Shown piece after piece: positions 860 through 14,297 of a stretch of 14,334 nucleotides of DNA. This stretch comes from Verrucomicrobiota bacterium. Lineage in GTDB: Bacteria; Verrucomicrobiota; Verrucomicrobiia; Limisphaerales; AV2. The stretch is taken from contig QHPA01000317.1 of NCBI GenBank assembly GCA_003218935.1, positions 1 through 14,334 of the forward strand, read 5' to 3'. Position 1 is the stretch's first letter, and each line of letters begins with the position of its first letter. A program made the position numbers and the translations under genes. The notes under the pieces were generated by a model, which saw only the letters and a program-made list of their open reading frames with translations, was not told the origin of the DNA and did no database searches.

Positions 860-1080
860 ATGCCCCGTATCCAGCGCAGCAACCTGCCGCGGGCCTTGTT
901 TGCGCATCTGCTCGACCGCATCAAAACCCGCAACATTTCCGCCGACCAACTACCAAGCCGGAAGTTCCCGAAGGAAAATGGTTCAAGAAATTTTCCGGTA
1001 TGACTGTTTGCGCGGGCGAACTGATAATACTCGATCCAAATCGAATGGTGCGTGTGAATTCCAAGTGGCTGACAGCCTGA
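860..1080 (+). pseudogene. Frameshifted small gene, partner of the antitoxin-like gene
   Basis: The ATG at 860 opens a frame that begins MPRIQRSNLPRALFAHLLDR and continues IKTRNISADQL, then stops at 1001-1003 after 47 codons. From about 955 a different frame reads KPEVPEGKWFKKFSGMTVCAGELI and stays open to the TGA at 1078-1080. From memory, small bacterial proteins join these halves as LP-x-x-L-x-x-H-L-L-x-R-x-x-x-R-x-I-S-x-x-Q-L, then about ten residues ending in a W-L-D-T-like motif, then P-x-G-x-W-(F/Y)-K-x-F. Here the linker is gone and the frame changes, consistent with a deletion of about 28-31 nt near 950-955. The sequence after GELI no longer looks family-like. The activity of the intact family is not known to me; a toxin role is only suggested by the 3-nt spacing from 856. 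Confidence 0.6.
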
Positions 1081-1123
1081 TCGGCGAAGAGGCGCTGCAG
1101 TCGAACGGAAGATCCAAAATCAA

Positions 1124-2135
1124 ATGCCGGACAATGATAAAGACAATTCACTGGGCGTCTGCATGGACCTGGCACTCGAACAGTCGGCGGCCTTTGATGT
1201 CGCCGTGAGGGAACTTGTCGACGCTTTGGCACGATTGGGCATTGACTTCGCAGCGGGCCCGACCGGACGCGTGCTGGAGCGCGGTTTCGAAGTGGGCCGC
1301 GTGATCTCGTGGAAACCGGGCGAACGAATCCTGATGCAATGGCGTCCGGCCGACTGGCTGCCTGAAGAAGTCACGGAGATCGAATTGCTTTTCGAGAAGC
1401 GCGACGGCGGCACGCGCGTGACGCTGAAGCATCGCGGATGGGATCGCCTGATCAAGGAGCCTGATGAACTGGTGGGTTGGTTCGCCAGCGAAGTGGCTGC
1501 GCCCATTCTGCGGGTGCTGGCGCCCGACGGATTTGGAGATTGGATGACCGACCGCAGGGCGCGCCGGCCTTCCGGCTCGCAAGCGCGCTCCGTTTATCGC
1601 GACCCGCTCTTTCACTACCCAAACTTCCGGGTCATCCTCGCGGAGTTGGCATTGACGCGCGAGGACTACCTATTGGAAGTGGGTTGTGGCGGCGGCGCGC
1701 TTCTGAAACCAGGAGATCAATCGCGACGCGGTCGCCGAAGGCCGACTTCAGGTCCGGCAATCCAGCGCCGATCGTTTGCCGTTCGCGGATGGCACGTTCA
1801 CTTGCGCGGTCATGACTGGTGTGTTGGGTTTTCTTCCAGAGCCGTTGGCCGCCTTCCGCGAAATCCGCCGTGTGCTTCGTCTAAATGGCCGATTCGTTGC
1901 CCTGGGAAGCGATTCCAGGTTGAAGGGAACCCCTGCCGCCCCCGAGCCAATGGCTTCCCGGCTGCGCTTTTACGAAGATGCAGAACTCGAATGTCTGGCG
2001 CGCGATGCGGGTTTCGAGGAAGCACGCGTGGTGCAGCGAGAGCTTGGGCAATTTGCCCGGGAAGCGGGCGTGCCGCAGCAATGCCTCGCGCTCTTTGACG
2101 GAGCCACGGGATTCCTCCTTGCGCGGAGACGCTGA
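1124..2135 (+). pseudogene. SRPBCC (AHSA1-like) + class I methyltransferase fusion, frameshifted
   Basis: The first part, from ATG 1124 or 1163, reads in one frame to about 1708. It contains an SRPBCC/AHSA1-type ligand-binding domain (GRVISWKPGERILMQWRPADW, then GGTRVTLKHRGW), a linker, and the start of a SAM-methyltransferase fold with motif I (LLEVGCGGGALL). From about 1710 the protein continues in another frame: EINRDAVAEGRLQVRQSSADRLPFADG, then a motif IV/V-like stretch (MTGVLGFLPEPLAAFREIRRVLRLNGRFV) to the stop at 2133-2135. The piece between motif I and EINRD, which should hold the acidic ribose-binding residue of motif II, is absent. A deletion (length 3n+2, roughly 60-75 nt) at about 1706-1713 explains both the loss and the frame change. 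An intact relative might methylate a small molecule bound by the SRPBCC part, but the substrate is unknown. This copy cannot make a working methyltransferase. Confidence 0.75.
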
Positions 2136-2214
2136 GCGTCAAACGTTGCGCGGCGAGAGAAACGTTCTCCTCATCGGCCACGCCGATAAAATAGCGGAGA
2201 TGGCGCAGTTCCAT
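2131..2214 (-). pseudogene. 5' stub of a LysR-family regulator gene
   Basis: From the ATG at 2214 on the minus strand the first 28 codons read MELRHLRYFIGVADEENVSL and continue AAQRLTLS. This is the classic LysR start: M-E-L-R-H-L-R-Y-F-x-x-V-A, then the first helix of the winged HTH with A-A-x-R-L. The recognition helix (normally S-Q-P-A-L-S-x-Q-I) and everything after it are missing: from 2130 the frame runs antisense into the end of the methyltransferase gene. LysR proteins are usually about 300 residues, so this is a truncated remnant. It overlaps the methyltransferase stop by a few bases, so the junction marks a deletion or rearrangement breakpoint. Confidence 0.75.
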
Positions 2215-2241
2215 GTGCCAACCAGCATACCCCGTGGTTTG

Positions 2242-2349
2242 CTTCGGGCAATCCCGAAGGCGATTGTGTCGTTCAGCCCGGCGTTGCTCGATGAAATCGG
2301 GCTACGCTGGGTGCCGAATCACGAATTGAGATCAACCCTGAAGGGGTTG
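2242..2349. repeat. REP-like palindromic intergenic repeat
   Basis: Three small hairpins lie in a row in an otherwise gene-free stretch (2215-2527). The first is CTTCGGG/CCCGAAG (2242-2248 with 2253-2259, loop CAAT). The second is AGCCCG/CGGGCT (2275-2280 with 2298-2303). The third is CAACCC/GGGTTG (2333-2338 with 2344-2349). Read on the minus strand, the order CCCTTCAGGG, ATTCGTGAT, CCCAG, GGGCT matches the order of blocks in the repeat at 3585-3660, so the two are probably diverged members of one family in opposite orientation. No coding potential is visible here. Confidence 0.5.
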
Positions 2350-2397
2350 AACTCATGCGCGCGAAATGGTGAGGCAACTCAGACGGAATTTCGTTAG

Positions 2398-2431
2398 GAT
2401 TCTGCCAGAGCGCGACTGTGTCCAGAGGACC
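2398..2431 (+). repeat. Dispersed direct repeat, copy B (34 nt)
   Basis: Matches copy A at 569-602 at 30 of 34 bases in the same orientation, with four substitutions and no gaps. Together the copies bracket the antitoxin-like gene, the two broken genes and the lysR stub (about 1.8 kb). Confidence 0.6.
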
Positions 2432-2527
2432 AGACGCAACGCGTGGATAGTGGAAGCTGGTTAGAAGATCTCAGACGGCTTGCTTAGGGACTTAACAAAT
2501 GTATCTTTGAGACCAACCGAACGAAGT

Positions 2528-2773
2528 ATGGAAACTCTCGTTAAGATAATCCTGACTGCGATTTTTACGTTCACGTTTGCAATCTGCTTGTATTGGACAT
2601 GGTCAAGCCAAATTGACGTAAAGCGCACGTTCTCACAATTCTTTGAAAAAAGGACTGACGGTCATCACTGTTGGAATATTTATGCTGTCGTGCGTCGCTT
2701 GCAAGAACATGGAAGAGAGTGCACTTCCTCAAGCTGTGGAGATCCAGAAATGGCGCGTCGTTCGGATTACTAG
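2528..2773 (+). CDS. Possible small membrane protein (doubtful)
   Basis: From the ATG at 2528 the frame gives METLVKIILTAIFTFTFAIC, which continues LYWTWSSQIDVKRTFSQFFEKR. Residues 4-23 form a good hydrophobic membrane helix, followed by a polar charged segment. After about residue 41 the sequence becomes cysteine- and histidine-rich and overlaps the start of the protease gene (2643), so the tail is unlikely to be real. It may be a short membrane protein whose original stop near 2650 was lost by a frameshift in the A6 run at 2646-2651, or chance. I do not recognise it. Confidence 0.25.
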   Translation: METLVKIILTAIFTFTFAICLYWTWSSQIDVKRTFSQFFEKRTDGHHCWNIYAVVRRLQEHGRECTSSSCGDPEMARRSDY

Positions 2774-3365
2774 AGAACGGCAAGGACAGTTCACATTTCT
2801 TGGAACGGGACTCATAATCGTGAGAGACAAAAGACCGTTTGTTGTAACGAATGATCACGTCGCACGAAAGGCGAGAGCTCCGAACGAGGCAACAAGTATA
2901 TGCATCGCATTCAATACGAATGCGTACCCAGCACGTGTAATCGGCAGCGATTCGGCACATGATCTTGCTTTACTTGAGTTGTCACCGGACTTTGAGATCG
3001 ATGGCTAAACTGGAGAAACCGTTGGTGAAGTTGGGCTGGGAACTGTAGTTTTCACGTTGAGTTTCGACGATTCACACAGTGCGGCATCAGACTTGATTAG
3101 CTCCAAGGGCAGGGTCGTGCTCGCGGCACCATTCGTGGCAGGAAAGAATATGTTCATTAGGTCAGGTGTTTACCCCGGCGAAACGGCGAAGGGTTTCGTG
3201 ATCAGTGGCGTCAACTGCACAAGTGGTTCAAGCGGAAGCCCCGTGTTCGACAAACATGGCAACATTCTGGGCTATTTGAAGGGCCGAACAGACGATGGTC
3301 AGTGTATTGCGATTTCACTCGAAAGAGCGCTTCAGTTAATTTCGCAAGCAAAGACGAAGAAATAA
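2643..3365 (+). pseudogene. Trypsin-like serine protease, lipoprotein type, interrupted by one in-frame stop
   Basis: A TTG start at 2643 gives a short basic N-terminus (MKKG), a hydrophobic core and cysteines in a lipobox-like setting (FMLSCVAC), so export as a lipoprotein or secreted protein is likely. The chymotrypsin/trypsin-like fold follows with all three catalytic residues visible: His72 in VVTNDHVA, Asp107 in SAHDLALLEL and Ser199 in SGSSGSPVFD. A TAA at 3006-3008 (codon 122) interrupts the frame between Asp and Ser. The same frame continues without shift through GLGTVVFTLSFDD to the true end at 3363-3365. A single point mutation therefore explains the break. Without it the product would be about 240 aa, usual for a small trypsin-like peptidase. 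The ATG at 2682 is an alternative start but would remove the signal peptide. The region is less GC-rich than its neighbours, hinting at separate origin. The substrate is unknown. Confidence 0.8.
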
Positions 3366-3755
3366 GTTCGCTCGCGAGATCACGCAAACCACTTTTGGAC
3401 TCGGTGTCTTAGTTAGATCTGCTTCTGGGTCAACTAATGACGCCTACTCAGGGATCAGGCTTCCTGTAAGGTTTCCGCTCCCACCCGGACGAACTCCCAT
3501 CATGAACGAGCATTCCTCTTGATCATCATTACCGGCACCAATGCGAACGGAGGAGCGTTGTTGCATTGGCTCACACCGTTTCTGTCGCCCTTTCAGGGCT
3601 CGAATTCTTTTTTTGATTCGTGATCCCAGGGCAACGCTGCGCTTGCCCTGGGCTATCATCTGTCGGTGCTACAACCAAAGACATTTCCCTTTGTCTGGCC
3701 ATTTGCGCTTCCACACATTACGCTTTACGAATAACGCATCGAGCATAACGCGCTT
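3366..3755. other. Gene-free stretch between the protease remnant and the HIT gene
   Basis: No credible gene is seen. Its main content is the palindromic repeat at about 3585-3660. The AT-rich 3700-3755 just before the HIT gene probably holds that gene's promoter, although no clear -35/-10 pair can be assigned. Confidence 0.4.
3585..3660. repeat. REP-like palindromic repeat with a perfect 10-bp stem
   Basis: The core is CCCAGGGCAA (3625-3634), an 8-nt loop, then TTGCCCTGGG (3643-3652), a perfect 10-bp inverted repeat. Upstream is a smaller hairpin, GCCCTTTCAGGGC. The block order (CCCTTTCAGGGCT, ATTCGTGAT, CCCAGG, GGGCT) is shared with the repeat at 2242-2349 read on the other strand. REP-like elements of this type are usual in intergenic DNA of Verrucomicrobia and Planctomycetes. 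The stem could also act as a transcription barrier. Confidence 0.6.
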
Positions 3756-4100
3756 ATGAGCAAAACCATCTTCGAAAAAATCATCGCTCGCGAGATTCCG
3801 TCCGACATCATTTACGAAGACGACCTGGTCGTCGCTTTTCGCGACATCAAACCCCAGGCCCCGACACACGTCCTGCTTGTCCCGCGAAAGCCCGTCCCTC
3901 GCATCGCCGAAGCCGCCGCGGAGGACCATCGCTTGCTCGGGCATCTGCTCCTGAAAGCTGCTGAAGTGGCGGCGAAACTGGGTTTGAAACCGAACGGCTA
4001 CCGGCTGGTGATCAACAACGGGCCGGATGGCGGGGAATCCGTCCCCCATCTGCACTGCCACATCCTCGGCGGTCGTCACCTGGGCTGGCCGCCGGGATAG
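3756..4100 (+). CDS. HIT-family (HINT-type) nucleotide hydrolase
   Basis: A complete 114-aa member of the histidine-triad superfamily, Hint branch. These cytoplasmic enzymes hydrolyse purine nucleoside phosphoramidates and aminoacyl-adenylates. The N-terminus (TIFEKIIAREIPSDIIYEDD) and central FRDIKPQAPTHVLLVPRKP are typical. The active-site triad His98-x-His100-x-His102 is in the motif PHLHCHILGGR, and the tail ends in WPPG as in most bacterial Hint proteins. Length and motifs show no loss, in contrast to several other genes in this window. The ATG at 3756 places the start where family members begin. The gene stands alone on the plus strand and faces the minus-strand aminotransferase group, so it is probably monocistronic. 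Confidence 0.95.
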   Translation: MSKTIFEKIIAREIPSDIIYEDDLVVAFRDIKPQAPTHVLLVPRKPVPRIAEAAAEDHRLLGHLLLKAAEVAAKLGLKPNGYRLVINNGPDGGESVPHLHCHILGGRHLGWPPG

Positions 4101-4120
4101 CCGTATCTGTTGAGTCCAAG

Positions 4121-4272
4121 GTAGGACAGGCGTCTCGCCTGTCCCGCTCGGACGCCAGCCCGAGCGGGCAAATCCGAATATCCCGGCCGATCACTTTTAA
4201 GTGATGCCCGCCGACATCGCTCGATCCAACCAGACCAGTTGCCTTGCTGGGCAGGCGGGACGCCTGCCCTAC
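4121..4272. repeat. MITE-like element with ~24-nt terminal inverted repeats
   Basis: The left end at 4121-4144 begins GTAGGACAGGCG and the right end, about 4249-4272, closes with CGCCTGCCCTAC. The two ends match as reverse complements at about 21 of 24 positions. Each end is a perfect hairpin: GGACAGGCG/CGCCTGTCC (4124-4132, 4136-4144) and GGGCAGGCG/CGCCTGCCC (4249-4257, 4261-4269). Inside are two more stems, CCGCTCGG/CCGAGCGG near 4144-4166 and ATCACTT/AAGTGAT near 4191-4206. It sits between the convergent HIT gene and small ORF and may double as a two-way terminator. Confidence 0.6.
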
Positions 4273-4273
4273 T

Positions 4274-4399
4274 CTACGGCTGTCGCGCATTCGCCGCCTG
4301 CCAAAGCATCCAGGTTATCTCCTCGTAAAACGCGTTCTTGCTCGGATAATCGAAAATCCTGCGCTGCAGGATCGCGAATCGATTGGCCGCGTCGGTCAT
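4274..4399 (-). CDS. 41-aa ORF coupled to the aminotransferase gene
   Basis: The ATG at 4399-4397 overlaps the TGA of the aminotransferase (4398-4396) in the four bases ATGA, a classic arrangement for translational coupling. The product begins MTDAANRFAILQRRIFDYPS and continues KNAFYEEITWMLWQAANARQ. It is compact and mixed-charge, with an aromatic-rich amphipathic second half and no membrane segment or signal. I do not recognise a family. Its stop lies right against the right end of the repeat at 4121-4272, so the gene may have been shortened by that insertion. The overlap and the protein-like composition argue that it is real, but it could be chance. Confidence 0.45.
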   Translation of the reverse strand: MTDAANRFAILQRRIFDYPSKNAFYEEITWMLWQAANARQP

Positions 4400-5658
4400 A
4401 AAAGTTCGCGCAGCGTCGCGCCGAGCCGCGCGATGCCCGCGCGAATGTCGGCTTCGGTCGCGCTGCCGAAACTGATGCGCATCTCGTGGTTCGGCTTGCG
4501 CCGCGTCGGATCGTCGGCGTAACACAGCTCGCCCGGCACATATAAAACTCCGTGCCTGAGCGCGCTTTGAAACAGCTTCGACTTGAGACCCGATTTCACC
4601 GATCCGGGCAGGCGCGCCCAAACGTAAAGCCCGCCGCGCGGCTCCTCCCAGAGAACGTCCGCCGGGAAATGCTCGCGCATGGCCTTCACCATCGCGACGG
4701 CCTTGCGCGCATAACGGTGCCGCAGCGCCGACAAATGTTTTTCATACCGGCATGACGCCAGCGCGCGACTCAACAACTGTTGCAGCAGATTCGACGTGCC
4801 GAAATCGTGGTTGGCTTTGACGCGCACCACCGCGTCCAGCAGCGGCTCCGGCAAAATGCCGAAGCCCACGCGCGCCCCGGTCGCAAACGGCTTGCTGTAA
4901 GTGCCGGCGTAAATCACCCGTTCACCAGCGCCGTTTGCCGCGAGCGCCGACGGCACATCGTCCCCGGCGAAACGCAGCTCGCGATATGCTGCGTCTTCGA
5001 GCAGATAGATCGGATGCCCGGCGGCCCGTTCAAACTGTTTCAACATTTTCAGCGCCTCGACTTTCTTGACAAAGCTCGTCGTGATGCCGGTCGGGTTCTG
5101 GTAATAACTGACAAGAAAGAGCATTTTGACACGCTGCAACTCGCCGCTTCGTTGGAGCAACTTCAGCGTTTGTTCCAAATGGGCCAAATCAATTCCATCC
5201 CCCGCGAGACGAACGCCGCGACACAGCAAACCGTGGCTTTGCACGATGCTGAGATAGACGAAATAGGTCGGGTCCTCCACCAGGACGACGTCGCCGGGGT
5301 CGCACAGGCACTCGGTCAACATGTAAAGAAGTTGTTGCGAGCCGCTCGTGATGACTGCGCGTTCCGCTGAATAGATTTCCTTCGACTCGCGAGGACTGGG
5401 TCCCACCCGGGCCCTGACCGTTGACGCTCTCCTCCGGTCGATCAGGGACGCGGTGGAGCGCGTCCCTCCCGACGAATCCAATTGCCACAACCGGTCCGTC
5501 GTCAAACGCCGCAACTGCGGGTCGCCAACCGTCGTGCCGTATTGCAGCGCCATCCGACCGGTCATCAAGGACGGATGGTCGAGCGGCAGTTTCATCAGCC
5601 ACGAAATCGGCGGCGCTTGAGTGCGCCGGCCCATTTTTGAAAAGGCGGATGTTTTCAT
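4396..5658 (-). CDS. PLP-dependent aminotransferase (fold type I, LysN/ARO8-like), with an internal gap and an insertion
   Basis: A 420-aa class I/II aminotransferase of the type found as 2-aminoadipate or aromatic aminotransferases and as the C-terminal part of MocR regulators; no HTH is present. Visible motifs are ITSGSQQLLYMLTE (phosphate-binding turn, 103-116), DPTYF (129-133), YYQNPTG (Asn188), LLEDAAY (Asp222), YAGTYSKPFATGARVGF (Schiff-base Lys256) and EMRISFG near the end. Two oddities occur near the N-terminus. Between HPSLM and TGRMALQYG (residues 32-33) the usual stretch with S-L-A-x-G and F/L-P-V, about 33 residues, is missing in frame. Residues 62-94 are an extra Arg/Ser-rich segment encoded by a palindromic repeat (5444-5467). 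Loss of the substrate-binding N-terminal arm may inactivate the enzyme. It lies 47 nt downstream of the hydrolase gene, probably in one operon, and is followed by the ATGA-coupled small ORF. Confidence 0.8.
   Translation of the reverse strand: MKTSAFSKMGRRTQAPPISWLMKLPLDHPSLMTGRMALQYGTTVGDPQLRRLTTDRLWQLDSSGGTRSTASLIDRRRASTVRARVGPSPRESKEIYSAERAVITSGSQQLLYMLTECLCDPGDVVLVEDPTYFVYLSIVQSHGLLCRGVRLAGDGIDLAHLEQTLKLLQRSGELQRVKMLFLVSYYQNPTGITTSFVKKVEALKMLKQFERAAGHPIYLLEDAAYRELRFAGDDVPSALAANGAGERVIYAGTYSKPFATGARVGFGILPEPLLDAVVRVKANHDFGTSNLLQQLLSRALASCRYEKHLSALRHRYARKAVAMVKAMREHFPADVLWEEPRGGLYVWARLPGSVKSGLKSKLFQSALRHGVLYVPGELCYADDPTRRKPNHEMRISFGSATEADIRAGIARLGATLRELL
5444..5467. repeat. Palindromic repeat inside the aminotransferase gene
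   Basis: AGGGACGCG (5444-5452), a 6-nt loop, then CGCGTCCCT (5459-5467) form a perfect 9-bp stem. It resembles the intergenic hairpin at 8223-8245 (AGGGACGGCG/CGCCGTCCCT). In the minus-strand reading frame it encodes residues 64-72 (GGTRSTASL) of the aminotransferase, in a segment that family members do not have. Confidence 0.7.
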
Positions 5659-5705
5659 TTCCGGTGTCAGGCAGCGTAAGGGATGGAAACGGAGTTTTCC
5701 ATCTG

Positions 5706-6626
5706 CTATCTGTGATGCTCCCGCTTCGGTGCCGTGCGGCTGTTTTCGAGCAGGGCGAGAAACTTGTTCAGTCCGTCGAGATACCGCTCACGGCCAGCTT
5801 CGAGAAAATCATTATGACGGCCGACGATTTCCCAAAGCAGTTTCGGTTCGTTGGCCGCGGCGAAATTTTTCTCCGCATGATGGAAACCGATCAAGCCATC
5901 GGCGCGGCTGTGCATGACCAGCACCGGCACTTTAATGCGCGGCAACTTGCTGTGTGTATCGTATTTGATGATGCCCAGCCAGCGCACCGGCAGCCAGGGA
6001 AACAACTCCGCTCCGAGGTCAGTGACGCTGGTGTAAGTGCTTTGAAGAATCAGGCCGCCCGAAGGTTCGCGCAGGGCCAGTTCACTGGCGATGCCCCCAC
6101 CGAGCGACTCGCCCAACACGATAATGTTCGCCGCGGCGAAGCCTCTTTGGCGCACCCATTGATGCGCCGCCTGGCCGTCCAGATACGTGCCTTCCTCGCT
6201 CGGTCTCCCTTCGCTCCGGCCGTAGCCGCGATAATCGAAGATGAAAACGCTCGCGCCGGTTTCGAGCAACGCCGCGACGTGCTCGAGCCGATGACTGATG
6301 TTCCCGGCGTTGCCATGGCAAAGCAGGTAAACGAGGTGTTGACGCGACGAGTCCTTGTCCGCGGGAAAAAACCAGCCATTCAGCTTCAATCCGTCCGCGG
6401 TTTGAAAATGAACATCCTCGAACGGGCGGCCCAACTCGCTGCCGTTCGCGTCCATTGGGCGAGACGGCTGATAAACCTGACGATGTTCGAACCAGCGCAG
6501 CACAAGATAAACAACCGCCAGCAAAACGAGCAGTCGAATGACTTTTGAGGTTCGTCGCGTCGACTTGCTGTTGGTCACGGCAAAAAATGCCACACCGACA
6601 ATTGAAAGGCCAGCCTCGTTAAGCAT
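5706..6626 (-). CDS. Membrane-anchored alpha/beta hydrolase (BEM46/ABHD13-like)
   Basis: A complete 306-aa protein. A single hydrophobic helix at about residues 29-46 (VIRLLVLLAVVYLVLRWF) follows an Arg/Lys-rich start, so the catalytic domain is probably tethered to the inner membrane. The alpha/beta-hydrolase fold shows the oxyanion motif HGNAGN (104-109), FDYRGYGRSEG (130-140), the nucleophile elbow GESLGG with Ser174, Asp243 in MHSRADGLIGF and His271 in VGRHNDF. These match the BEM46/ABHD13-type serine hydrolases; the physiological substrate is unknown, and a lipid or ester is likely. No piece appears to be missing. A GTG at 6578 is an alternative start, and neither start has a strong ribosome binding site. 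It is the first gene of the minus-strand group leading to the aminotransferase. Confidence 0.9.
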   Translation of the reverse strand: MLNEAGLSIVGVAFFAVTNSKSTRRTSKVIRLLVLLAVVYLVLRWFEHRQVYQPSRPMDANGSELGRPFEDVHFQTADGLKLNGWFFPADKDSSRQHLVYLLCHGNAGNISHRLEHVAALLETGASVFIFDYRGYGRSEGRPSEEGTYLDGQAAHQWVRQRGFAAANIIVLGESLGGGIASELALREPSGGLILQSTYTSVTDLGAELFPWLPVRWLGIIKYDTHSKLPRIKVPVLVMHSRADGLIGFHHAEKNFAAANEPKLLWEIVGRHNDFLEAGRERYLDGLNKFLALLENSRTAPKREHHR

Positions 6627-6676
6627 TCCAAATGCAAGTTCGAAGATCGGGTATTACCGTGAATCCGCCGCTCGTA

Positions 6677-6782
6677 GCCGCTTAGGTACTGGTACAATTT
6701 GGTGGGGCGAGGCTACGGACGAGCCGGCTCGCGCGGACGCTCGCCCCACCGAAAATGCAAACTGTACCACTACCGCCGCATA
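6677..6782. mobile_element. 90-bp MITE-like element, copy 1, with 8-bp target duplication
   Basis: The element spans 6685-6774. It is a near-palindrome whose right end reads GCAAACTGTACCACTACC and whose left end is the slightly decayed complement (GGTACTGGTACAATTTG). Inside are GGTGGGGCGAG and CTCGCCCCACC. It is flanked by GCCGCTTA (6677-6684) and GCCGCATA (6775-6782), an 8-bp direct repeat with one mismatch, as expected for a target-site duplication. It is 84 of 88 identical, in inverse orientation, to 7366-7453. It has no coding capacity. Confidence 0.8.
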
Positions 6783-6798
6783 ACGCCGCTTTACAAAT

Positions 6799-7326
6799 TC
6801 AACGTTGCGACACCGCGTCGTTGAACTGCGGAATAGCGGTGAAGCCGCTCGCCCTCGAATCCTCCCGCAACCCGTTCTCGCGCAACATTTCGACCAACTC
6901 TTCCCCGGTGTAGTAGGGCCAAAGCATTGCCGCGGCGTGCCGCATGAAATGCTCGCTCTCCGGCGAGTTGTCGCGCAAACACGGCATGAGGCCGATGAGT
7001 TTGCCGCCGGGGCGCAGCGGTGAGACGGCCTGTCTGAACAACGTGGTCGGCTCGATCAATTCGACAATGGGGCCGGCCAGCACAAGCGCGTCATACTTTT
7101 CATGCGCGCCGAGGGAAGTTTGGGCGTGGACAGCTTGAACCAGTTGCAGCGCCGCAGAAGCCGTGGACCAGTCGAGCCATTGGCAATCGACGAGCCGGGT
7201 GTTCACAAATTCCCGCTGCGCCGCCAGATCTTCGAGCGACCACCGGATTTGCGCGTCGCGTGCGTAATGTTGGAGAAACTCCGCGCCTGCCGCTGAAAAC
7301 GTCGGTGACATTGCTCCGACAAACAT
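6799..7326 (-). CDS. Methyltransferase-like protein, possibly lacking its SAM motif I
   Basis: From the ATG at 7326 (or 7311, which has GGAG close upstream) the product is 175 or 170 aa. The second half resembles the C-terminal half of class I SAM methyltransferases: YDALVLAGPIVELIEPTTLF (motif IV-like strand and helix), then SPLRPGGKLIGLMPCL (motif V/VI-like), then YTGEELVEMLRENGL. The N-terminal half (SAAGAEFLQHYARDAQIRW, EDLAAQREFVNTRLVDCQWLDW) shows no G-x-G-x-G motif, although DCQWLDW could follow motif II/III. Either this is a degenerate family or a motif-I piece is lost, as in other genes here. The reading frame is open beyond 7326 into the flanking element, but that extension is repeat-encoded. 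MITE copies lie 17 nt after its stop and about 30 nt before its start. It is divergent from the methyltransferase at 7548. Confidence 0.6.
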   Translation of the reverse strand: MFVGAMSPTFSAAGAEFLQHYARDAQIRWSLEDLAAQREFVNTRLVDCQWLDWSTASAALQLVQAVHAQTSLGAHEKYDALVLAGPIVELIEPTTLFRQAVSPLRPGGKLIGLMPCLRDNSPESEHFMRHAAAMLWPYYTGEELVEMLRENGLREDSRASGFTAIPQFNDAVSQR

Positions 7327-7356
7327 ACCGGACGCGGCCGGCCGGTCCAACCCTGA

Positions 7357-7462
7357 TGAATTACAGTAGTGGTACAGTTTGCATTTTCGGTGGGGCGAGC
7401 GTCCGCGCGAGCCTGCTCGTCCGTACCCTCGCCCCACCAAACTGTACCACTACCTGAATTAC
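7357..7462. mobile_element. 90-bp MITE-like element, copy 2, with perfect 8-bp target duplication
   Basis: The element spans 7365-7454 in inverse orientation to copy 1. Its ends are GTAGTGGTACAGTTTG and CAAACTGTACCACTAC, a perfect terminal inverted repeat of about 16 bp. It is flanked by TGAATTAC at 7357-7364 and again at 7455-7462, an exact 8-bp direct repeat. It sits in the divergent promoter region between the two methyltransferase genes, about 30 nt upstream of the minus-strand start. Confidence 0.85.
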
Positions 7463-7547
7463 GTTCGGGTTCCGGATTGTCGTGTGGTAAACTCGTCTCA
7501 CGCAAAGCAGACGCGGAGCGGCTTGCACGGCGCCAATCGCGAAGCGG

Positions 7548-8216
7548 ATGAAACGTATTCCCGAACCGGAATTGATGGACACGGACGAGCAAGCACGCGC
7601 TTATGCCGCCGCCGATTTTTCCACGGCGCACCAGTCTTACGTCACATTATTTTCTGAGACCTTCCCGAAACGGCCGGCGAAAGCCACGGTGCTCGACCTG
7701 GGTTGTGGCCCGGCCGACGTGACTATTCGTTTTGCCAACGCCAATCCAGGCTACACTTTCCACGCCGTGGACGGCTCCGCCGCGATGTTGAACTGTGCCA
7801 GGCAGGCCCTGAAATCGCGGCGCCGGTTGATCCAGCGGATCAAACTCGTCGAGGGTTACATCCCTGGCGCGCCGATTCCGCGCAAGGGCTACGACCTGAT
7901 TCTGTCGAACAGCTTCCTGCATCACCTCCACGATCCTCAAGTCCTTTGGCGATGTGTCCGAAGCCACGCGAAAACGGGAACCCTTGTCTTTATCACCGAC
8001 TTGTTCCGACCCGCCAGCCGCGCCAGGGCCAAGGCTCTGGTCAGGAAATATTCTCATGCCGAGCCGTCGATTTTGAAGCGGGACTTCTACAACAGCTTGC
8101 TGGCGGCATTTACGCCGGACGAAATAATGGAGCAACTGGCGGAGGCCAAATTGGATCAACTTTGCGTCCAGGTCGTCAGCGACCGGCATTTGATGATTTA
8201 CGGCAGAATCCGTTAG
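7548..8216 (+). CDS. Class I SAM-dependent methyltransferase
   Basis: A complete 222-aa methyltransferase. Motif I is ATVLDLGCGPADVTIRFA (residues 46-63) and motif II ends in the acidic ribose-binding residue of FHAVDGS (Asp75). The post-II segment is GYIPGAPIPRKGYDLILSNSFL with HHLHDP, which is the motif IV region of small-molecule methyltransferases, followed by the strand TGTLVFITDLFRP. The C-terminal part (EPSILKRDFYNSLLAAFTPDEI) is like that of enzymes in the UbiE/Methyltransf_25 group. The substrate cannot be told from sequence. It is transcribed divergently from 6799-7326 with MITE copy 2 between them, and is followed by a strong hairpin at 8223. No missing segment is seen. Confidence 0.9.
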   Translation: MKRIPEPELMDTDEQARAYAAADFSTAHQSYVTLFSETFPKRPAKATVLDLGCGPADVTIRFANANPGYTFHAVDGSAAMLNCARQALKSRRRLIQRIKLVEGYIPGAPIPRKGYDLILSNSFLHHLHDPQVLWRCVRSHAKTGTLVFITDLFRPASRARAKALVRKYSHAEPSILKRDFYNSLLAAFTPDEIMEQLAEAKLDQLCVQVVSDRHLMIYGRIR

Positions 8217-8222
8217 CACGGG

Positions 8223-8245
8223 AGGGACGGCGTGCCGCCGTCCCT
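8223..8245. repeat. Perfect 10-bp hairpin after the methyltransferase gene
   Basis: AGGGACGGCG (8223-8232), loop TGC, CGCCGTCCCT (8236-8245). It begins a few bases after the methyltransferase stop and could terminate transcription, but no T-run follows, so it is more safely called a palindromic repeat. It resembles the stem inside the aminotransferase gene. Confidence 0.65.
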
Positions 8246-8289
8246 GATTCGAGCGACCGCAACATCCGTGCAGGGCGCATCGACGGCTC

Positions 8290-8353
8290 GTGGCACGGGC
8301 GTCCCGCCCGTTTGCTCCAAACCAGAAACTCACGGGCGGGACACCCATGCCAC
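8290..8353. repeat. Inverted-repeat element upstream of thiG
   Basis: The left arm, GTGGCACGGGCGTCCCGCCC (from 8290), pairs with the right arm near 8331-8353, which reads CACGGGCGGGACACCCATGC and then CAC. About 20 of 23 positions match as reverse complements. The left arm also contains its own palindrome, CGGGCGTCCCGCCCG. It is non-coding and lies in the 230-nt gap before thiG. Confidence 0.6.
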
Positions 8354-8445
8354 TACCATTGCGAGAAACTCAGATGCGCCCCGGTCCCTCCCGTCGGCTC
8401 CTGCACTCTCGACACCCGGCTCGCGACGACCTATGCTCCCTGGCG

Positions 8446-9234
8446 ATGCCTTTAGTGAAGCGACCATTGACCATTGCCGGACACGAGTTCGGCTCGCGTT
8501 TGATTCTCGGCACAGGAAAATTTTCTTCACCGGAAAAAATGCGGGACGCGCTCGACGCCAGCGGCGCGGAAATGGTCACCGTCGCGCTCCGCCGCGCGGA
8601 CCTGAGCGGCAAACATGATCCCTTCGCGAACATTTTGGATTTCATTGATCCGAAGCGTTATCTGATCCTGCCCAACACCAGCGGCGCAATGAACGCCGAG
8701 GAAGCCGTGCGACTCGCGCGACTGGCGCGCGCGGCCGGACTACCCAACTGGGTGAAGCTTGAAATCCATCCAGACCCGCGTTACCTGTTGCCCGACCCGA
8801 TCGAAACGCTCAAAGCCGCGGATCAGCTCGTGAAGGAAGGTTTTATTGTACTGCCTTACATCAATGCCGATCCGATACTGGCCAAACGTTTGCAGGACGT
8901 CGGCACCGCCACGGTGATGCCACTCGGCTCGCCGATTGGCTCGAATCGCGGCCTTCAAACACGCGATCAGATTCGCATCATCATCGAGCAAGCCACCGTG
9001 CCGGTCGTGGTTGATGCCGGCCTCGGCGCGCCCAGCCACGCCGCCGAAGCGATGGAACTGGGCGCCGACGCCGTGCTCGTCAACACCGCCATCGCTGTTG
9101 CCGATGATCCGGTGCGGATGGCAGTCGCATTCAAGAAGGCGATCGAAGCCGGTCGTGATGCGCATGAAATCGGGCCGGGCGCACAGCTTGATACCGCAAG
9201 CGCGACGAGTCCATTGACGGCATTTCTTGAGTGA
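8446..9234 (+). CDS. thiG: Thiazole synthase ThiG
   Basis: A complete 262-aa ThiG, close to the usual 250-265 residues. ThiG condenses 1-deoxy-D-xylulose 5-phosphate, dehydroglycine and ThiS-thiocarboxylate into the thiazole phosphate of thiamine in the cytoplasm. Visible motifs are [41 protein letters not shown] with the Schiff-base Lys104, [63 protein letters not shown] and the C-terminal [10 protein letters not shown]. The frame is open upstream of 8446, but that part is encoded by the repeat at 8290-8353, and homology starts at the ATG at 8446. No thiS, thiH or thiF is in the window, so the rest of the pathway must lie elsewhere. The next gene starts 145 nt downstream, beyond another repeat. 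Confidence 0.97.
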
Positions 9235-9240
9235 GAACTC

Positions 9241-9364
9241 CGAAACCCGAATGCCGAATGACGAACGAAACTCGAATGACGAATGGCAAATGCCGCGCCG
9301 GTGCGGTGCTGCGTTCGAGCTTCCGGCTTCGTCACTCTTTTGGCATTCGGCATTCGGATTTCGT
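9241..9364. repeat. Inverted repeat between thiG and rfaE1
   Basis: The left arm, CGAAACCCGAATGCCGAATG (from about 9241), pairs with the right arm CATTCGGCATTCGGATTTCG (about 9345-9364), 19 of 20 positions as reverse complements. Between them CGAATGACGAA-type units repeat. This ATTCG-rich non-coding element fills nearly the entire gap. Open frames reading through it are not genes. Confidence 0.6.
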
Positions 9365-9378
9365 CATTTTCCACCGCC

Positions 9379-10296
9379 ATGAAACCGCGACTTCTCCCGG
9401 TTGACCGCGTTCGCCGAATTCTGCAGGCCGCCGCGCGGACCCGTGTGCTGGTCATCGGCGACGTGATGCTCGACCAGTTCATCTGGGGCCGCGTCTCGCG
9501 CATTTCGCCGGAAGCGCCGGTGCCGGTGGTTGAGTTTGAGCGCGAAAGCTTCATGCCCGGAGGCGCCGCCAACGTGGCGCGCAATCTCACCGCTTTGAAA
9601 ACTTCCGCCGACGCGCTGGGCGTCATTGGCCGGGACGACGCCGGAAAAAAATTAACGAGCCTGCTGGAGGAGCAACGCGTTGGCTGCGACGGCCTGCTGC
9701 AACACTTCGACCGCACCACCAGCATCAAGACGCGGATCATCGCGCACCAGCAACAGGTCGTGCGGATCGACCGCGAGACGCGCGAGGACCTGGACGAAAT
9801 GGCCACGCAGCGCCTGCTGGAGATTCTCGCCTGGAAACTTCCGTCCGCGGACGCGGTCATTGTGGGCGATTACGGCAAAGGCGTAGTGACTCAGCCGCTG
9901 CTCGATGAAATCAAAAAACTCTGCCGCGCGCGCGGCCTCTGGCTGAGTCTCGACCCCAAGCCGGTCCACCATTTGAATCTGGCGGGAATATCCCTCATCA
10001 CGCCGAATCGGAAGGAAGCGTTTGAATTGGCCGGCGTGATCGACGGCGGTTCCGCGCGGTCCGCCAATCCGCTGAATGACGCCGCTTTGATGGGCGCCGC
10101 GGAAAAATTGTTGCGCGACCTGCGACCGGCTTTTGACACGGTCATCGCGTCGTTGACCCTGGCCATTGCCGCAGGCGCATCGCCGCTCGAAGCGGCGATC
10201 TTTTCCAACCACGTGGCCGGAGTTGTCGTGGGCAAGGTCGGCACCGCCACCGTTTCGCCGCAGGAATTGCTGGCCAGTTTCAAACGCAAGGGATGA
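9379..10296 (+). CDS. rfaE1: D-glycero-beta-D-manno-heptose-7-phosphate kinase (RfaE1/HldE kinase domain), missing its GAGD region
   Basis: A PfkB/ribokinase-fold protein of 305 aa that matches the kinase half of HldE, which makes heptose-1,7-bisphosphate for the LPS inner core. Motifs are VLVIGDVMLDQFIWG, RISPEAPVPVV, MPGGAANVARNLTAL, TSIKTRIIAHQQQVVRIDRE, GDYGKGVVT, SLDPKP, ITPNRKEAFELAG and the C-terminal GVVVGKVGTATVSPQEL. At residues 252-253 (10132-10137) the sequence jumps from RDLRPAF directly to DTVIASLTLA. Family members have about 36 residues here, including the G-E-x-G-M strand and the PfkB signature F-D-V-S/T-G-A-G before D-T-V. Only the catalytic Asp of GAGD remains. The loss is in frame and would remove the anion hole and part of the ATP site, so the product is probably inactive if the sequence is right. 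The ATG at 9379 fits the family start. No nucleotidyltransferase domain is attached. Confidence 0.85.
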   Translation: MKPRLLPVDRVRRILQAAARTRVLVIGDVMLDQFIWGRVSRISPEAPVPVVEFERESFMPGGAANVARNLTALKTSADALGVIGRDDAGKKLTSLLEEQRVGCDGLLQHFDRTTSIKTRIIAHQQQVVRIDRETREDLDEMATQRLLEILAWKLPSADAVIVGDYGKGVVTQPLLDEIKKLCRARGLWLSLDPKPVHHLNLAGISLITPNRKEAFELAGVIDGGSARSANPLNDAALMGAAEKLLRDLRPAFDTVIASLTLAIAAGASPLEAAIFSNHVAGVVVGKVGTATVSPQELLASFKRKG

Positions 10297-10446
10297 AGCT
10301 CCAAACACCAAACACCAAAGAATCTCCCAGCTCCACGCCTTAAACGATGCGCGATACTCCCCGATGGACACACACAATGGCAGAATGTCGTTGGAGCTTT
10401 GGATTTGGGATTTCTTTGGAGCCTGGGATTTGGGTTTTGGAGCTTT
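10297..10446. repeat. Inverted repeat filling the gap between rfaE1 and the GmhB-like gene
   Basis: The left arm, AAGCTCCAAACACCAAACAC (from about 10297), pairs with the right arm near 10409-10446, which carries TTCTTTGGAGCC, GGGATTTGGG and TTTTGGAGCTT. The right arm is itself built from TTGGAGC and GGGATTTGG units in tandem. It ends at the ATG of the next gene, so that gene's ribosome binding site (GGAG about 6 nt before the ATG at 10447) is part of the repeat. Confidence 0.6.
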
Positions 10447-10995
10447 ATGAGTCGCGCTGTTTTCCTGGATCGCGACGGGACCCTCATCGAAGAGAAGGAT
10501 TATCTGAGCGACCCGGATCAAGTTGTCCTTCTTCCCGGCGCTGCGGAGGCGTTGAAACGATTGCAGGATGCCGGCTTCAAACTGTTCATCGTCTCGAATC
10601 AGTCCGGCGTGGGCCGCGGCTACTTCACGATGGCGGACGTGGAACGGATGAATCAACGTTTGGTCGAACTGCTCGCAAAAAACGGCGCGCGCCTCGAAAA
10701 AATTTACATCGCGCCCGAAGCGCCGGAGCAGCCGAGCCGCGGACGCAAACCGTCGCCACAATTCCTCTTTGACGCGCGGGATGAGTTCGGCATCGAGCTC
10801 TCGGAAAGCTACCTGATCGGCGACAAGCAGACTGATCTGGAGTGCGGGTGTAACGCGGGCGTGAAACAGAGCATCCTGGTGCGGACGGGGTATGGCGCGG
10901 AGCAGGAGCGTGCTGGAAACCAATTTACCCGCGCCGCAGTCGTGGATGATCTCCAAACGGCGGTAGAGTTGATTTTGAAGGCCGAGGTGCCCTGA
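10447..10995 (+). CDS. gmhB: HAD-IIIA phosphatase, GmhB-like (heptose-1,7-bisphosphate 7-phosphatase)
   Basis: A complete 182-aa HAD-superfamily, subfamily IIIA protein. Motif I is VFLDRDGTLI (nucleophile Asp8, acid/base Asp10), motif II is FIVSNQSGVGRG (Ser50), motif III has Lys101 in GRKPSPQFLFDA, and motif IV is LIGDKQTDLECG (Asp126, Asp130). The arrangement matches GmhB, which removes the 7-phosphate from heptose-1,7-bisphosphate, the step after the RfaE1 kinase encoded just upstream. The Cys/His zinc site of E. coli GmhB is absent: the loop reads APEAPEQPSRGRKP. Some HAD-IIIA enzymes lack that site, so a related sugar or histidinol phosphatase remains possible. The frame is open upstream, but family homology begins at the ATG at 10447. 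No internal loss is seen. Confidence 0.85.
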   Translation: MSRAVFLDRDGTLIEEKDYLSDPDQVVLLPGAAEALKRLQDAGFKLFIVSNQSGVGRGYFTMADVERMNQRLVELLAKNGARLEKIYIAPEAPEQPSRGRKPSPQFLFDARDEFGIELSESYLIGDKQTDLECGCNAGVKQSILVRTGYGAEQERAGNQFTRAAVVDDLQTAVELILKAEVP

Positions 10996-11033
10996 CCACT
11001 TGTTAGGTCAGTAAACACCACATATAAACACCT

Positions 11034-11633
11034 ATGCACGTCGTTGTCCATGATACTAATCCAAACGGAAAACCCGAGAAACTGGCTGCTTTAAATTCTA
11101 CGAGTCGTGCTGATCGTGACCACTCGATATGCTTGAGTGTTCCCGCGAATCGATTCGCAGCGCCAGCAATGCGACGTGGAGGTTCGAGGAGGAAAACGCG
11201 GACAAATCCCTCATCTCAAAACGAGAAAAAGAGAGGCTCTGTTTGGATCCTGAACCCTCTTGATAAGGACTTTGTTCCTTCTGACGCAAAATTAAGTCCT
11301 TTCGAAATCGAACAAACGCAAGTCTATCGCCCGCGACATTTCACGGAACGATTGATCGCACAAGCAGGTTACTTCACAATTCATTGCTTCCACCAAAACA
11401 CTTCGAGTTTCACGCCAATTGAAAAGGATTTGAGGTTGGGAAAGCGTTTGATGGAAATCCAGATTGAGCCAGATGCTTTCAGTGATCTGAGAGACAATCT
11501 TGAACGACACGGCGTCAGTGATCTGACAATGTTTCCAGACTTGGAAGGAGTCGGTCGATATATCACTTGGAACAATTCCTTATTGCGTGATGAAATCGAC
11601 CCTCCGAACATTCTCCTTAATCAAGGCAAGTGA
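11034..11633 (+). pseudogene. FRG-domain protein remnant (N-terminal part missing)
   Basis: The 199-codon frame has an unconvincing first third (Ser/Arg-rich, no motif). From about residue 66 it resembles the second half of an FRG domain: RGSVWILNPLDKDF, then YRPRHFTERLIAQAGYFTIH, then PDLEGVGRYI. The first half of the FRG domain, including the F/W-R-G motif and the region that usually reads P-T-R-L-L-D-W, is not found. A neighbouring frame around 11130-11250 gives a charged stretch (TWRFEEENADKSLISKREKE) that might be the original upstream reading, so a frameshift is possible. The function of FRG domains is not well established. The DNA is visibly less GC-rich than the flanking genes, suggesting acquisition. 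It ends with GTGA overlapping the kdsB start, splitting what is otherwise an LPS gene row. Confidence 0.5.
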
Positions 11634-12379
11634 ACATCCTCGGCATCATCCCCGCCCGTTATGCTTCAACTCGTTTTCCCGGCAAACCGCTGCATCCGAT
11701 CGCGGGCAAGCCGCTCATCCAGCGCGTCGTCGAGCGATGCAAGCTGGCAAACTCGTTGAGCGAAGTCATCGTCGCGACGGATGACGCGCGCATTCGCGAG
11801 GTTGCAGAGAAGTTTTGTCGCGTAGAGATGACGCGCGCGGACCATCCGAGCGGTACGGACCGCATTGCGGAAGTCGCCGCGCGTTGCGACGGCGACGCCG
11901 TGGTCAACATCCAGGGCGACGAACCGTTGATTGACCCGAAGGTAATTGATGCCGTGGCCGCTGCGCTGACAGACAATGAGATGTCCACCGCGGCCACGCT
12001 CATCAAAGACCCTGCTGAACACGACAATCCGAACGTCGTAAAAGTCGTTGTCAATTCCGCCGGACGCGCCTTATACTTTTCCCGGCGCACGGTCCCGTAT
12101 CTGCGCGATGCCGCCAGTGGTTCGGCTGCCGAACAGTTGGCGGCGTTTCCTTTTTTGAAACATCTGGGCACCTACGGCTACCGGCGTGAGACGTTGTTGC
12201 GGCTGGTGAAATTTCCGGTTTCGCCGCTCGAAGCCGCGGAGAAACTGGAACAGTTGCGCGCGCTGGAAAACGGGATTCAAATCGCGGTCGTGAAAGTGAA
12301 CTACGACAGCGTGGGCGTGGACACGCCTGAAGACGCGGCGCGTGTAGAAAGAATTTTAACCACGGATAAACACAGATGA
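11630..12379 (+). CDS. kdsB: 3-deoxy-manno-octulosonate cytidylyltransferase KdsB
   Basis: A complete 249-aa KdsB, the usual size. It activates Kdo with CTP to CMP-Kdo for lipid A-core synthesis. Motifs are IIPARYASTRFPGKPL (nucleotide-binding loop), VIVATDD, MTRADHPSGTDRIAEVA, VVNIQGDEPLID, NPNVVKVV, ALYFSRRTVPYLRD, HLGTYGYRRETLL, SPLEAAEKLEQLRALENG and VGVDTPEDAARVE. The GTG at 11630 overlaps the TGA of the FRG remnant (GTGA) and is preceded by AAGG 4 nt upstream. The last seven residues (LTTDKHR) and the stop are encoded by the left arm of a dispersed repeat (12355-12388). The product of PyrG, encoded downstream, is CTP, the cosubstrate of this enzyme. Confidence 0.96.
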   Translation: MNILGIIPARYASTRFPGKPLHPIAGKPLIQRVVERCKLANSLSEVIVATDDARIREVAEKFCRVEMTRADHPSGTDRIAEVAARCDGDAVVNIQGDEPLIDPKVIDAVAAALTDNEMSTAATLIKDPAEHDNPNVVKVVVNSAGRALYFSRRTVPYLRDAASGSAAEQLAAFPFLKHLGTYGYRRETLLRLVKFPVSPLEAAEKLEQLRALENGIQIAVVKVNYDSVGVDTPEDAARVERILTTDKHR

Positions 12380-12388
12380 ACACGGATA
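12355..12388. repeat. Repeat arm overlapping the 3' end of kdsB
   Basis: Reads TTTAACCACGGATAAACACA and then GATGAACACGGAT. It is the inverted counterpart of 12700-12723 (ends CATCTGTGGTTAAAA): both share TTTAACCAC and AGATGAACACGGAT in reverse complement. It supplies the kdsB stop codon at 12377-12379. Confidence 0.7.
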
Positions 12389-12405
12389 TTTTATGAGTTG
12401 TTAAT

Positions 12406-12660
12406 ATGAATCTGATGCAAGCCGTCATGATGTTCGGAATGTTTTTGCTGGGAGCGAATTGTGGATACTTAATTTCCATGCTTCTTCCCCGTGTTTTTGC
12501 GCAGTTGTGCATGCTAGCATCGGGAGCCCTGATTGCATTTTTCTCTTTTGTGCCCGTGACAAAATGGCTGATGAGCAAACCCTGTTCACACACTAGGTCC
12601 ACAGTTCTAACGATTGCATCTGTTTTGCGCCGTTTACGCTGTGGAATCTTGAAAGTTTGA
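12406..12660 (+). CDS. Small membrane protein of unknown function
   Basis: An 84-residue frame starting at ATG 12406 (MNLMQAVMMFGMFLLGANCG). Two hydrophobic segments, about residues 5-27 and 32-53, are separated by a short Arg-containing turn, with a basic tail (RRLRCGILKV) after about residue 58. This is the pattern of a small two-helix inner-membrane protein. The C-terminal third reads less like protein. It is not recognised as any family. Its DNA is less GC-rich than the flanking genes and it lies between the inverted repeat arms at 12355-12388 and 12700-12723, so it may have been carried in with them. The ribosome binding site is weak. Confidence 0.35.
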   Translation: MNLMQAVMMFGMFLLGANCGYLISMLLPRVFAQLCMLASGALIAFFSFVPVTKWLMSKPCSHTRSTVLTIASVLRRLRCGILKV

Positions 12661-12699
12661 AACATCGCTAATGGTTTGATACGACTTGCATCCGTGTCA

Positions 12700-12723
12700 A
12701 TCCGTGTTCATCTGTGGTTAAAA
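12700..12723. repeat. Repeat arm just upstream of pyrG
   Basis: ATCCGTGTTCATCTGTGGTT followed by AAAA, preceded by a second ATCCGTGT unit at 12690. It is the reverse complement of the core of 12355-12388. It ends 10 nt before the pyrG GTG, so it occupies the place where promoter or ribosome-binding elements would be expected. Confidence 0.7.
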
Positions 12724-12733
12724 ACTTTTTGAA

Positions 12734-14297
12734 GTGAAATACATCTTCGTCACCGGCGGCGTGGTGAGTTCGCTGGGCAAGGGCCTGACCGCGGCGGCGC
12801 TCGGCACCTTGCTGGAGAACCGCGGGCTGAAAGTCGCGCTGCAAAAGTTCGACCCTTACCTCAACGTGGACCCCGGCACGATGAACCCCTATCAGCATGG
12901 CGAGGTCTATGTGCTCGACGACGGCGCCGAGACCGACCTTGACCTCGGCCATTACGAGCGCTTCACCAACGTCAAGCTCACCCGCTTCAACAACCTCACC
13001 AGCGGCCAGGTTTACCAGACCGTGCTCAACAACGAGCGAGAGGGAAAATACCTGGGCAAGACTCCTCGCCGATCAATCAAAGGCGGACGTCGTCATCACC
13101 GAAATCGGCGGCACCACCGGCGACATCGAAGGCTTGCCCTTTCTCGAAGCCATCCGCGAGTTCGCGCTCGAAGCCGGGCACGGCAACGTGGTGTTCATGC
13201 ACGTCACCTACGTCCCGTTCATCAAGGCGGCGGGCGAACTGAAGACCAAGCCGACGCAGCAATCGGTCGCCAAACTGCGCGAAATCGGTATCGCGCCGCA
13301 TATTTTGATCGCCCGTTGCGAACGTCCGCTCGATAAGGAACTGCGCCAGAAAATCTCGCTGTTCTGCAATGTCCCTTACGAAGCGGTCATCGAGGAGAAG
13401 GACGTTGACCACAGCATTTACGAGGTGCCGCTCATGCTTCAGCGCGACCGGCTCGACGACCTCGTCTGCCGCCTGCTGCACCTCGACACGCCGACGGCGA
13501 ACATGGCGCATTGGCAGGAGATCATCCGCAAACTCATCGCGCCGCAACATCGCGTCCGCATCGGCGTCGTCGGCAAATACATCGAGCTGCAGGACGCCTA
13601 CAAATCGGTTTACGAAGCGGTCATTCACGGCGGCGTGGCCAACGATTGCGGCGTGGAAATCGTCAAGGTGGACGCCGAAGACATCGAGCGCGAAGGACCG
13701 GAGAAGATTTTGAAGGGACTCGGCGGAATTCTCGTGCCGGGCGGTTTCGGCGAGCGCGGGATCGAGGGGAAAATCATGGCGGCGAAATACGCCCGCGAAA
13801 ACAAACTTCCCTATCTCGGATTGTGTCTCGGCATGCAGATCGCCACGATCGAATTCGCCCGCAACGTGCTCAAACTGGACAAAGCGCATTCGACCGAGTT
13901 CGATCCCGACACACCACATCCGGTCATCGCGCTTTTGGACGAACAGAGGAAAATTACAAAAAAAGGCGGCACGATGCGGCTGGGCGCGCAGCCATGCCAG
14001 TTGGTGATGGGCTCGATGGCGGCCAAACTTTATGGCGCGTTCGTCGTCAACGAACGGCACCGACATCGCTACGAATTCAACAACGCGTATCGCGACAAGT
14101 TCGAGAAGGCTGATTTCGTTTTCAGCGGGACGTCGCCGGACGGCAAACTGGTTGAGGTGATCGAACTGCCGAACCACCCATTCTTCATCGCCAGCCAGTT
14201 TCACCCGGAGTTTCGCAGCAAACCGCACCAGCCGCATCCCTTGTTCCGGGGCTTCATCGCCGCCGCCCACGCGCACATTCATCATCGGCCGCTGTGA
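12734..14297 (+). pseudogene. pyrG: CTP synthase PyrG, broken by a short out-of-frame deletion
   Basis: PyrG aminates UTP to CTP using glutamine. The frame from GTG 12734 gives [20 protein letters not shown] (P-loop), [32 protein letters not shown] and then [12 protein letters not shown], ending at about 13061. The remainder is in another frame: [20 protein letters not shown], then [52 protein letters not shown], the glutaminase domain with [16 protein letters not shown] (nucleophile Cys), [22 protein letters not shown] and [19 protein letters not shown], to the TGA at 14295-14297. Family members have about 17 residues between YLGAT and the A-D-V-V strand (V-Q-V-I-P-H-I-T and following) that are absent here. 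A deletion of about 50 nt (3n+2) at 13061-13062 accounts for both the loss and the frame change. All other motifs are intact, so decay is either very recent or an assembly error. The GTG start lacks a clear ribosome binding site. Confidence 0.93.

Follow-up and report, generated by a model that had tools for sequence, protein, structure and literature searches.

Introduction

Among the closest described counterparts of the sequence features treated here are local errors in metagenome assemblies. Such errors are suspected to be particularly prominent in the output of the assembler IDBA-UD, according to the passages we draw on from Chen 2020 (PMC7111523), where the criterion for an error is a junction without perfect support by any read. 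The pertinent part of Anantharaman 2016 (PMC5079060) gives three ways of dealing with places of zero coverage: the reads are reassembled with Velvet, Ns are inserted, or the scaffold is broken. In the sections of Diamond 2019 (PMC6784897) used here, 'scaffolding errors' were corrected following that work, in assemblies made with IDBA-UD (k 30–200, starting higher in 12 cases, and reads trimmed to 200 bp); one sample was assembled by megahit with the IDBA-UD scaffolder. Here, we consider contig QHPA01000317.1 of the Verrucomicrobiota metagenome-assembled genome (MAG) GCA_003218935.1, in which five genes each lack one compact internal piece. The observation itself is confirmed, and the gaps are very probably an artefact of assembly rather than a biological feature of the organism.

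The window, meaning the whole stretch of DNA analysed (14,334 bp), is the entire contig C238 of this MAG, hereafter G000, which comprises 3.83 Mb in 546 contigs and is 82% complete. It was compared with four congeners, G001–G004; DNA identity to G001 and G004 is 93–94%. The counterpart contigs are QHNT01000136.1 (Verrucomicrobia bacterium isolate AV7, 14_0929_05_30cm_scaffold_5534_curated) and QHOP01000436.1 (isolate AV5, 14_0919_12_20cm_scaffold_3911_curated), and the scaffolds of G001 and G004 (isolates AV7 and AV5) bear the label '_curated'. We take the AV isolate names to belong to the Angelo Coast Range grassland study. In the part of that paper used here (PMC6784897), a sample is named 14_0903_13_30cm, in the same style as the scaffolds of G001 and G004. 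G000, too, probably derives from the project that yielded those two genomes.

Results

Five genes of the window lack an internal piece

Compared with same-genus genomes or close homologues, the following genes of the window have a missing internal piece:

860..1080, + strand: small gene; about 25 bp gone near 954 (frameshift) and about 3 bp gone near 1012; the 3' end is divergent.
1124..2135, + strand: SRPBCC(AHSA1)-methyltransferase gene; split at about 1708/1710 (frameshift), with Pfam matches to AHSA1 and Methyltransf_11 on its two parts.
4396..5658, - strand: pyridoxal phosphate (PLP) aminotransferase gene; 87 bp gone at 5563/5564, equal to 29 residues, in frame.
9379..10296, + strand: rfaE1-like PfkB kinase gene; 108 bp gone at 10133/10134, an in-frame loss of 36 residues within the C-terminal half.
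12734..14297, + strand: pyrG (CTP synthase); 50 bp gone at about 13061–13063, frameshift.

An earlier, sequence-only reading of the window had claimed that at least five genes lack one compact piece each, had put the losses at about 30 to 110 nt, and had counted two of them as in frame and three as out of frame. Alignment to G001, G004, G002 and homologues bears all of this out: the measured losses are about 25, 65, 87, 108 and 50 bp, in the order listed, with the frame kept in the aminotransferase and rfaE1 and shifted in the small gene, the methyltransferase and pyrG. Sizes were taken from DNA alignment for the aminotransferase, rfaE1 and pyrG, and from protein alignment for the methyltransferase.

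The methyltransferase provides a direct comparison with a whole copy. Its loss amounts to 22 residues, sized on the protein and read as 65 bp. Protein P0242 (358 aa; sources jgi, lgn, ena and metaclust; 4 contigs, the longest of 5,655 bp) is identical to the window gene product at 195/195 N-terminal and 141/141 C-terminal residues (336/336), and holds 22 further residues between these two flanks. Among the best 120 of 993 matches, exactly 22 extra residues are seen in 117 of the 119 non-self homologues, the other two being short (208 and 221 aa); after P0242, the next best matches in this list are only 85–86% identical. Since the flanks of P0242 are identical to the window, the methyltransferase exists whole in other collections, in this strain or one very near to it. 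For this gene only, the whole sequence is thus available from a further assembly of such a strain.

The pieces missing from the aminotransferase, rfaE1 and pyrG are all present in G001 and G004; G002 carries those of rfaE1 and pyrG, and its aminotransferase piece was seen in alignment. Among the best 120 of 2,277 aminotransferase matches, 114 have at least 15 extra residues at the site of the gap, and the remaining six (326–404 residues) show no gap (three) or 9 residues (three). The rfaE1 site is similar: at least 25 extra residues occur in 112 of the best 120 of 4,117 matches, and of the other eight, seven (247–294 residues) lack any inner gap of at least 5 residues and one has 22 residues at this place. 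Homologues without the extra residues are mostly shorter proteins. pyrG was matched in 37 of the 40 genomes searched (G000 included), as one open frame of at least 537 aa in 34 relatives; the remaining matches are split over two contigs in two cases and in one are the broken window copy. When the G001 region was used as query against G000, the missing pieces did not turn up in a second copy. It had been left open earlier that close relatives might share the short forms; G001, G004, G002 and most of the listed homologues have the pieces, which speaks against a natural indel spread through the lineage.

For rfaE1, the Pfam PfkB match is 86.1 bits over residues 21–220 in the window, against 134.5 bits over residues 23–330 in homologue P0001. 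Judged from this weakened match, the loss, though in frame, would probably ruin the enzyme.

Three of the genes that are hit still show purifying selection, which is strong in both halves of pyrG. Counted by codon position (1/2/3), the window differs from G001 at 19/13/107 sites in the aminotransferase, rfaE1 and pyrG together (107 of 139 at the third position), compared with 57/21/139 in five whole genes. In pyrG, with both halves counted, the figures are 2/4/66 (66 of 72 at the third position). Since the third-position bias is kept, these three genes are not decaying, and the relaxed codon-position pattern expected of a decaying pseudogene is absent.

The small gene at 860 is the weakest of the five lesions; it was compared only with its homologue in G001:C36 (blastn, 66% identical) and read by eye. 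In G004, the 95% match to the window (L071, contig G004:C511) ends at window position 931, inside this gene. Beyond that point (L071 from about 10756 onward), G004 continues with an unrelated stretch that contains a different open frame and may be an insertion.

Similar gaps elsewhere in G000 and in related MAGs

The sequence-only reading had described the lesions as a property of one 14-kb stretch. They are not confined to it: similar gaps are present in three of four other G000 contigs that were set against the genus, and also in the relatives G001 and G004. The class screened was gaps of 20–300 bp within open reading frames (ORFs) in aligned coding DNA. ORF thresholds were 150 aa in the genus survey and 200 aa in the pairwise screen, so that short genes were dropped, and indels of 1–19 bp were left out of the pairwise counts, where they are mixed with alignment noise.

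In the trio G000, G001 and G004, the pairwise screen gave 11 gaps in 70,945 coding bp (G000–G001), 12 in 65,600 bp (G000–G004) and 11 in 70,464 bp (G001–G004). Control pairs from other Verrucomicrobiota loci and other projects (14 of the 40 best-aligned pairs listed, several of which share a locus) had 3 gaps in 134,778 bp, p = 0.001 against G000–G001. The six control pairs of at least 84% identity had 2 gaps in 61,546 bp (p = 0.03), and the five of these without a shared locus had 2 in 54,427 bp (p = 0.05). Pooling the trio (34 gaps in 207,009 bp) gives p = 3e-5, which is too strong; since most trio events appear in two pairs, one pair alone was tested. An excess over controls is therefore likely, though not overwhelming.

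Each member of the trio has its own set of gaps, those of G001 measuring 99–139 bp and those of G004 24–115 bp. Private gaps, that is, gaps seen relative to both trio partners and not common to G002, were tallied by hand: 50, 64, 83, 87 and 108 bp in G000; 99, 124, 127 and 139 bp in G001; and 80, 90 and 112 bp in G004. Four of these 12 are in frame, which equals the chance expectation (4 of 13 if a 79-bp G004 gap from the genus survey, dropped from the tally, is added). Also dropped were a 114-bp G001 gap outside the window that is common to G002, and gaps seen against one partner only (G000, 91 and 138 bp; G001, 111 bp; G004, 24, 26, 48, 56 and 115 bp). The lesions thus ignore both reading frame and gene function, pyrG and rfaE1 being among the genes hit. 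In G002, two such gaps were found in about 42 kb, one of them common to G001.

The fourth congener, G003, has 8 runs of Ns (20–183 bp) in 73,648 bp (loci L189–L192, L204–L209), and many gaps of 20–75 bp within ORFs, several of them 43–49 bp. Gaps and N runs together are perhaps another assembly signature.

Junction sequences

At the three window junctions sized on DNA, the overlap between the two ends is 0, 0 and 2 bp. The 24 trio events gave 19 with an anchored split, one of which was excluded from the overlap statistic on account of mismatches. Overlaps at the 18 scored junctions are 0–4 bp, and 7 of the 18 have 3–4 bp, compared with 8% in a simulated null (p = 3e-4). Among the five events without an anchored split are the two whose alignments overlap most; both were inspected individually.

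Several simple origins of the gaps were tried and rejected. Collapse at short repeats, one route suggested by the sequence-only reading along with a search for short direct repeats at the deletion ends in relatives, is not borne out in the window: the DNA junctions, checked against relatives, have no flanking direct repeats. Such a collapse is possible for one gap elsewhere. Nor do junctions sit preferentially in segments identical between strains, the 24 events behaving like 2,100 random places (p = 0.79). Within the window this idea had looked promising: the right flank of pyrG agrees fully with G001 over about 225 bp, and the exact runs on the two sides of the window junctions are 43/88, 121/64 and 10/226. 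Drop-out intrinsic to the sequence was likewise rejected, as 22 deleted pieces resemble random in-ORF pieces in GC content (p = 0.26) and folding energy (p = 0.31). Finally, simple removal of N runs was rejected on the grounds that N gaps are far rarer than unmarked gaps: 20 further G000 contigs (259,771 bp) contain two, of 85 and 40 bp, and another stretch contains one more, of 9 bp.

Other genes and features of the window

Six further genes had been called whole, among them:

3756..4100, + strand: HIT-domain gene; whole in the window, with a Pfam HIT match.

This assessment stands wherever a comparison could be made. Relative to G001, gaps of at least 20 bp are absent from the alpha/beta hydrolase, the methyltransferase at 7548, thiG, the gmhB-like gene and kdsB; the HIT gene lies outside the G001 contig and shows a 3-base gap alone relative to G002. 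All six have Pfam matches. The G004 counterpart of the HIT gene lacks 110 bp (window about 3841–3948), a gap that appears in the genus survey but not in the pairwise screen because the ORF thresholds drop short genes.

A trypsin-like protease gene at 2643–3365, overlooked in the sequence-only reading, has an in-frame stop at 3006–3008. Both pieces (2643–3008 and 3057–3365) have weak Pfam Trypsin_2 matches and lie in the same frame, so this looks like a point change rather than a gap. Short intergenic repeats are present at about 367–552, 6698–6770 and 7370–7450, the latter two spotted by eye; the first accounts for most of 62 matches spread over many G000 contigs. Between the gmhB-like gene and kdsB lies a 199-aa open frame (11034–11633) that has no Pfam match and is unaligned in G001.

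Discussion

Among the candidates put forward by the sequence-only reading, the first, systematic loss during assembly or read processing, is the best supported, on the strength of the intact P0242 and of purifying selection on the genes that are hit. We propose that assembly of a short-read soil metagenome would lead to local assembly or scaffolding errors of the following kind. In a population that is thinly covered or a mixture of strains, two contigs would meet at a breakpoint; a scaffolding step, or a later automatic error repair, would join their ends almost bluntly; and the 25–110 bp between the joined ends would be dropped without Ns. The cell's own genes would be whole. In this scheme, we infer that the breakpoints were determined by coverage or by strain mixture, with the bases being lost at the joining or repair step.

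Several points weigh against this explanation. The evidence is drawn entirely from assembled sequence. An intact copy is known for one of the five genes, at the protein level, and the collections that list P0242 may hold assemblies of the same reads; even if they do, those reads can yield the whole gene. The excess of 3–4 bp overlaps is not predicted by plain blunt joining, and of the two unscored junctions inspected, one, at a 138-bp G000 gap outside the window (L163 10528), has a 17-bp direct repeat (the second, near L174 15357, has a 5-bp match). The idea that junctions sit at strain-identical sequence failed, mere stripping of Ns is unsupported given how much rarer N gaps are than unmarked ones, and the excess of gaps becomes modest once linked control pairs are removed (p = 0.05, or 0.03 with six pairs).

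The alternative that survives best, unlikely as we consider it to be, is that the gaps are genuine deletions of recent date, in a genome strongly biased towards short deletions, in which end-joining with little or no overlap removes 25–140 bp and the deleted forms are variants in the sampled population. This was the second candidate of the sequence-only reading, and some observations fit it: the excess of 3–4 bp overlaps (7 of 18 junctions) and gaps private to single genomes, as expected of recent events; three congeners show gaps, and G003 has many of 20–75 bp. It does not explain P0242, intact with identical flanks. Real deletions are also hard to reconcile with just 4 of 12 private gaps being in frame, with a frameshifted pyrG for which no second copy was found in G000, with the weakened PfkB match of rfaE1, with an unrelaxed codon-position pattern, and with a congener, G002, that has only two such gaps in about 42 kb. 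A wider version, for which we see little room, would be a soil Verrucomicrobiota genus in which essential genes keep suffering deletions of 25–140 bp through end-joining with very short overlaps, and in which the population carries intact copies along with deleted ones.

It is similarly improbable that the assembler chose deletion-bearing reads, from real minor variants or library chimeras, over the whole form. The whole form is indeed present in other collections, and the few overlapping bases at some junctions would be compatible with chimeras or with products of end-joining, but the minor form would have to beat the common one each time, at many sites and in at least three MAGs. Ordinary gene decay into pseudogenes, already discounted by the sequence-only reading, can be practically dismissed, despite three of five lesions shifting the frame and the in-frame stop in the protease gene, since the third-position bias is kept in the three hit genes tested, pyrG is among the genes hit and the gaps are private to single assemblies.

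If assembly is indeed at fault, the value of these observations is mainly as a quality warning for such records. Relative to G001 or G004, G000 has 6–7 in-ORF gaps in about 70 kb of aligned coding sequence; by extrapolation, should this rate hold across the MAG, a few hundred genes would be affected, and so would protein databases, pathway calls and claims of gene loss that rest on such records. Near-blunt, frame-neutral, private gaps of 25–140 bp in conserved genes make up a signature that could be used to screen other MAGs.

Two known phenomena resemble what is seen here. Technical pseudogenes, in the part of the study that we cite (BMC Genomics 2024, PMC11017572), are likewise broken genes that may be sequencing or assembly artefacts; the treatment there covers frameshifts and internal stops generally rather than this size class of gap. 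The second phenomenon is that of local errors in IDBA-UD assemblies (PMC7111523, PMC5079060), in which, as proposed here, wrong joins between contigs result in incomplete protein-coding genes in public MAGs. In the passages cited from those two papers there is no description of clean losses of 25–140 bp that recur as they do here, and the present scaffolds, if they stem from the study that followed such a procedure (PMC6784897), had already passed error correction. In the two papers on local errors, detection was by missing read support; the present gaps came to light through comparison of sequences.

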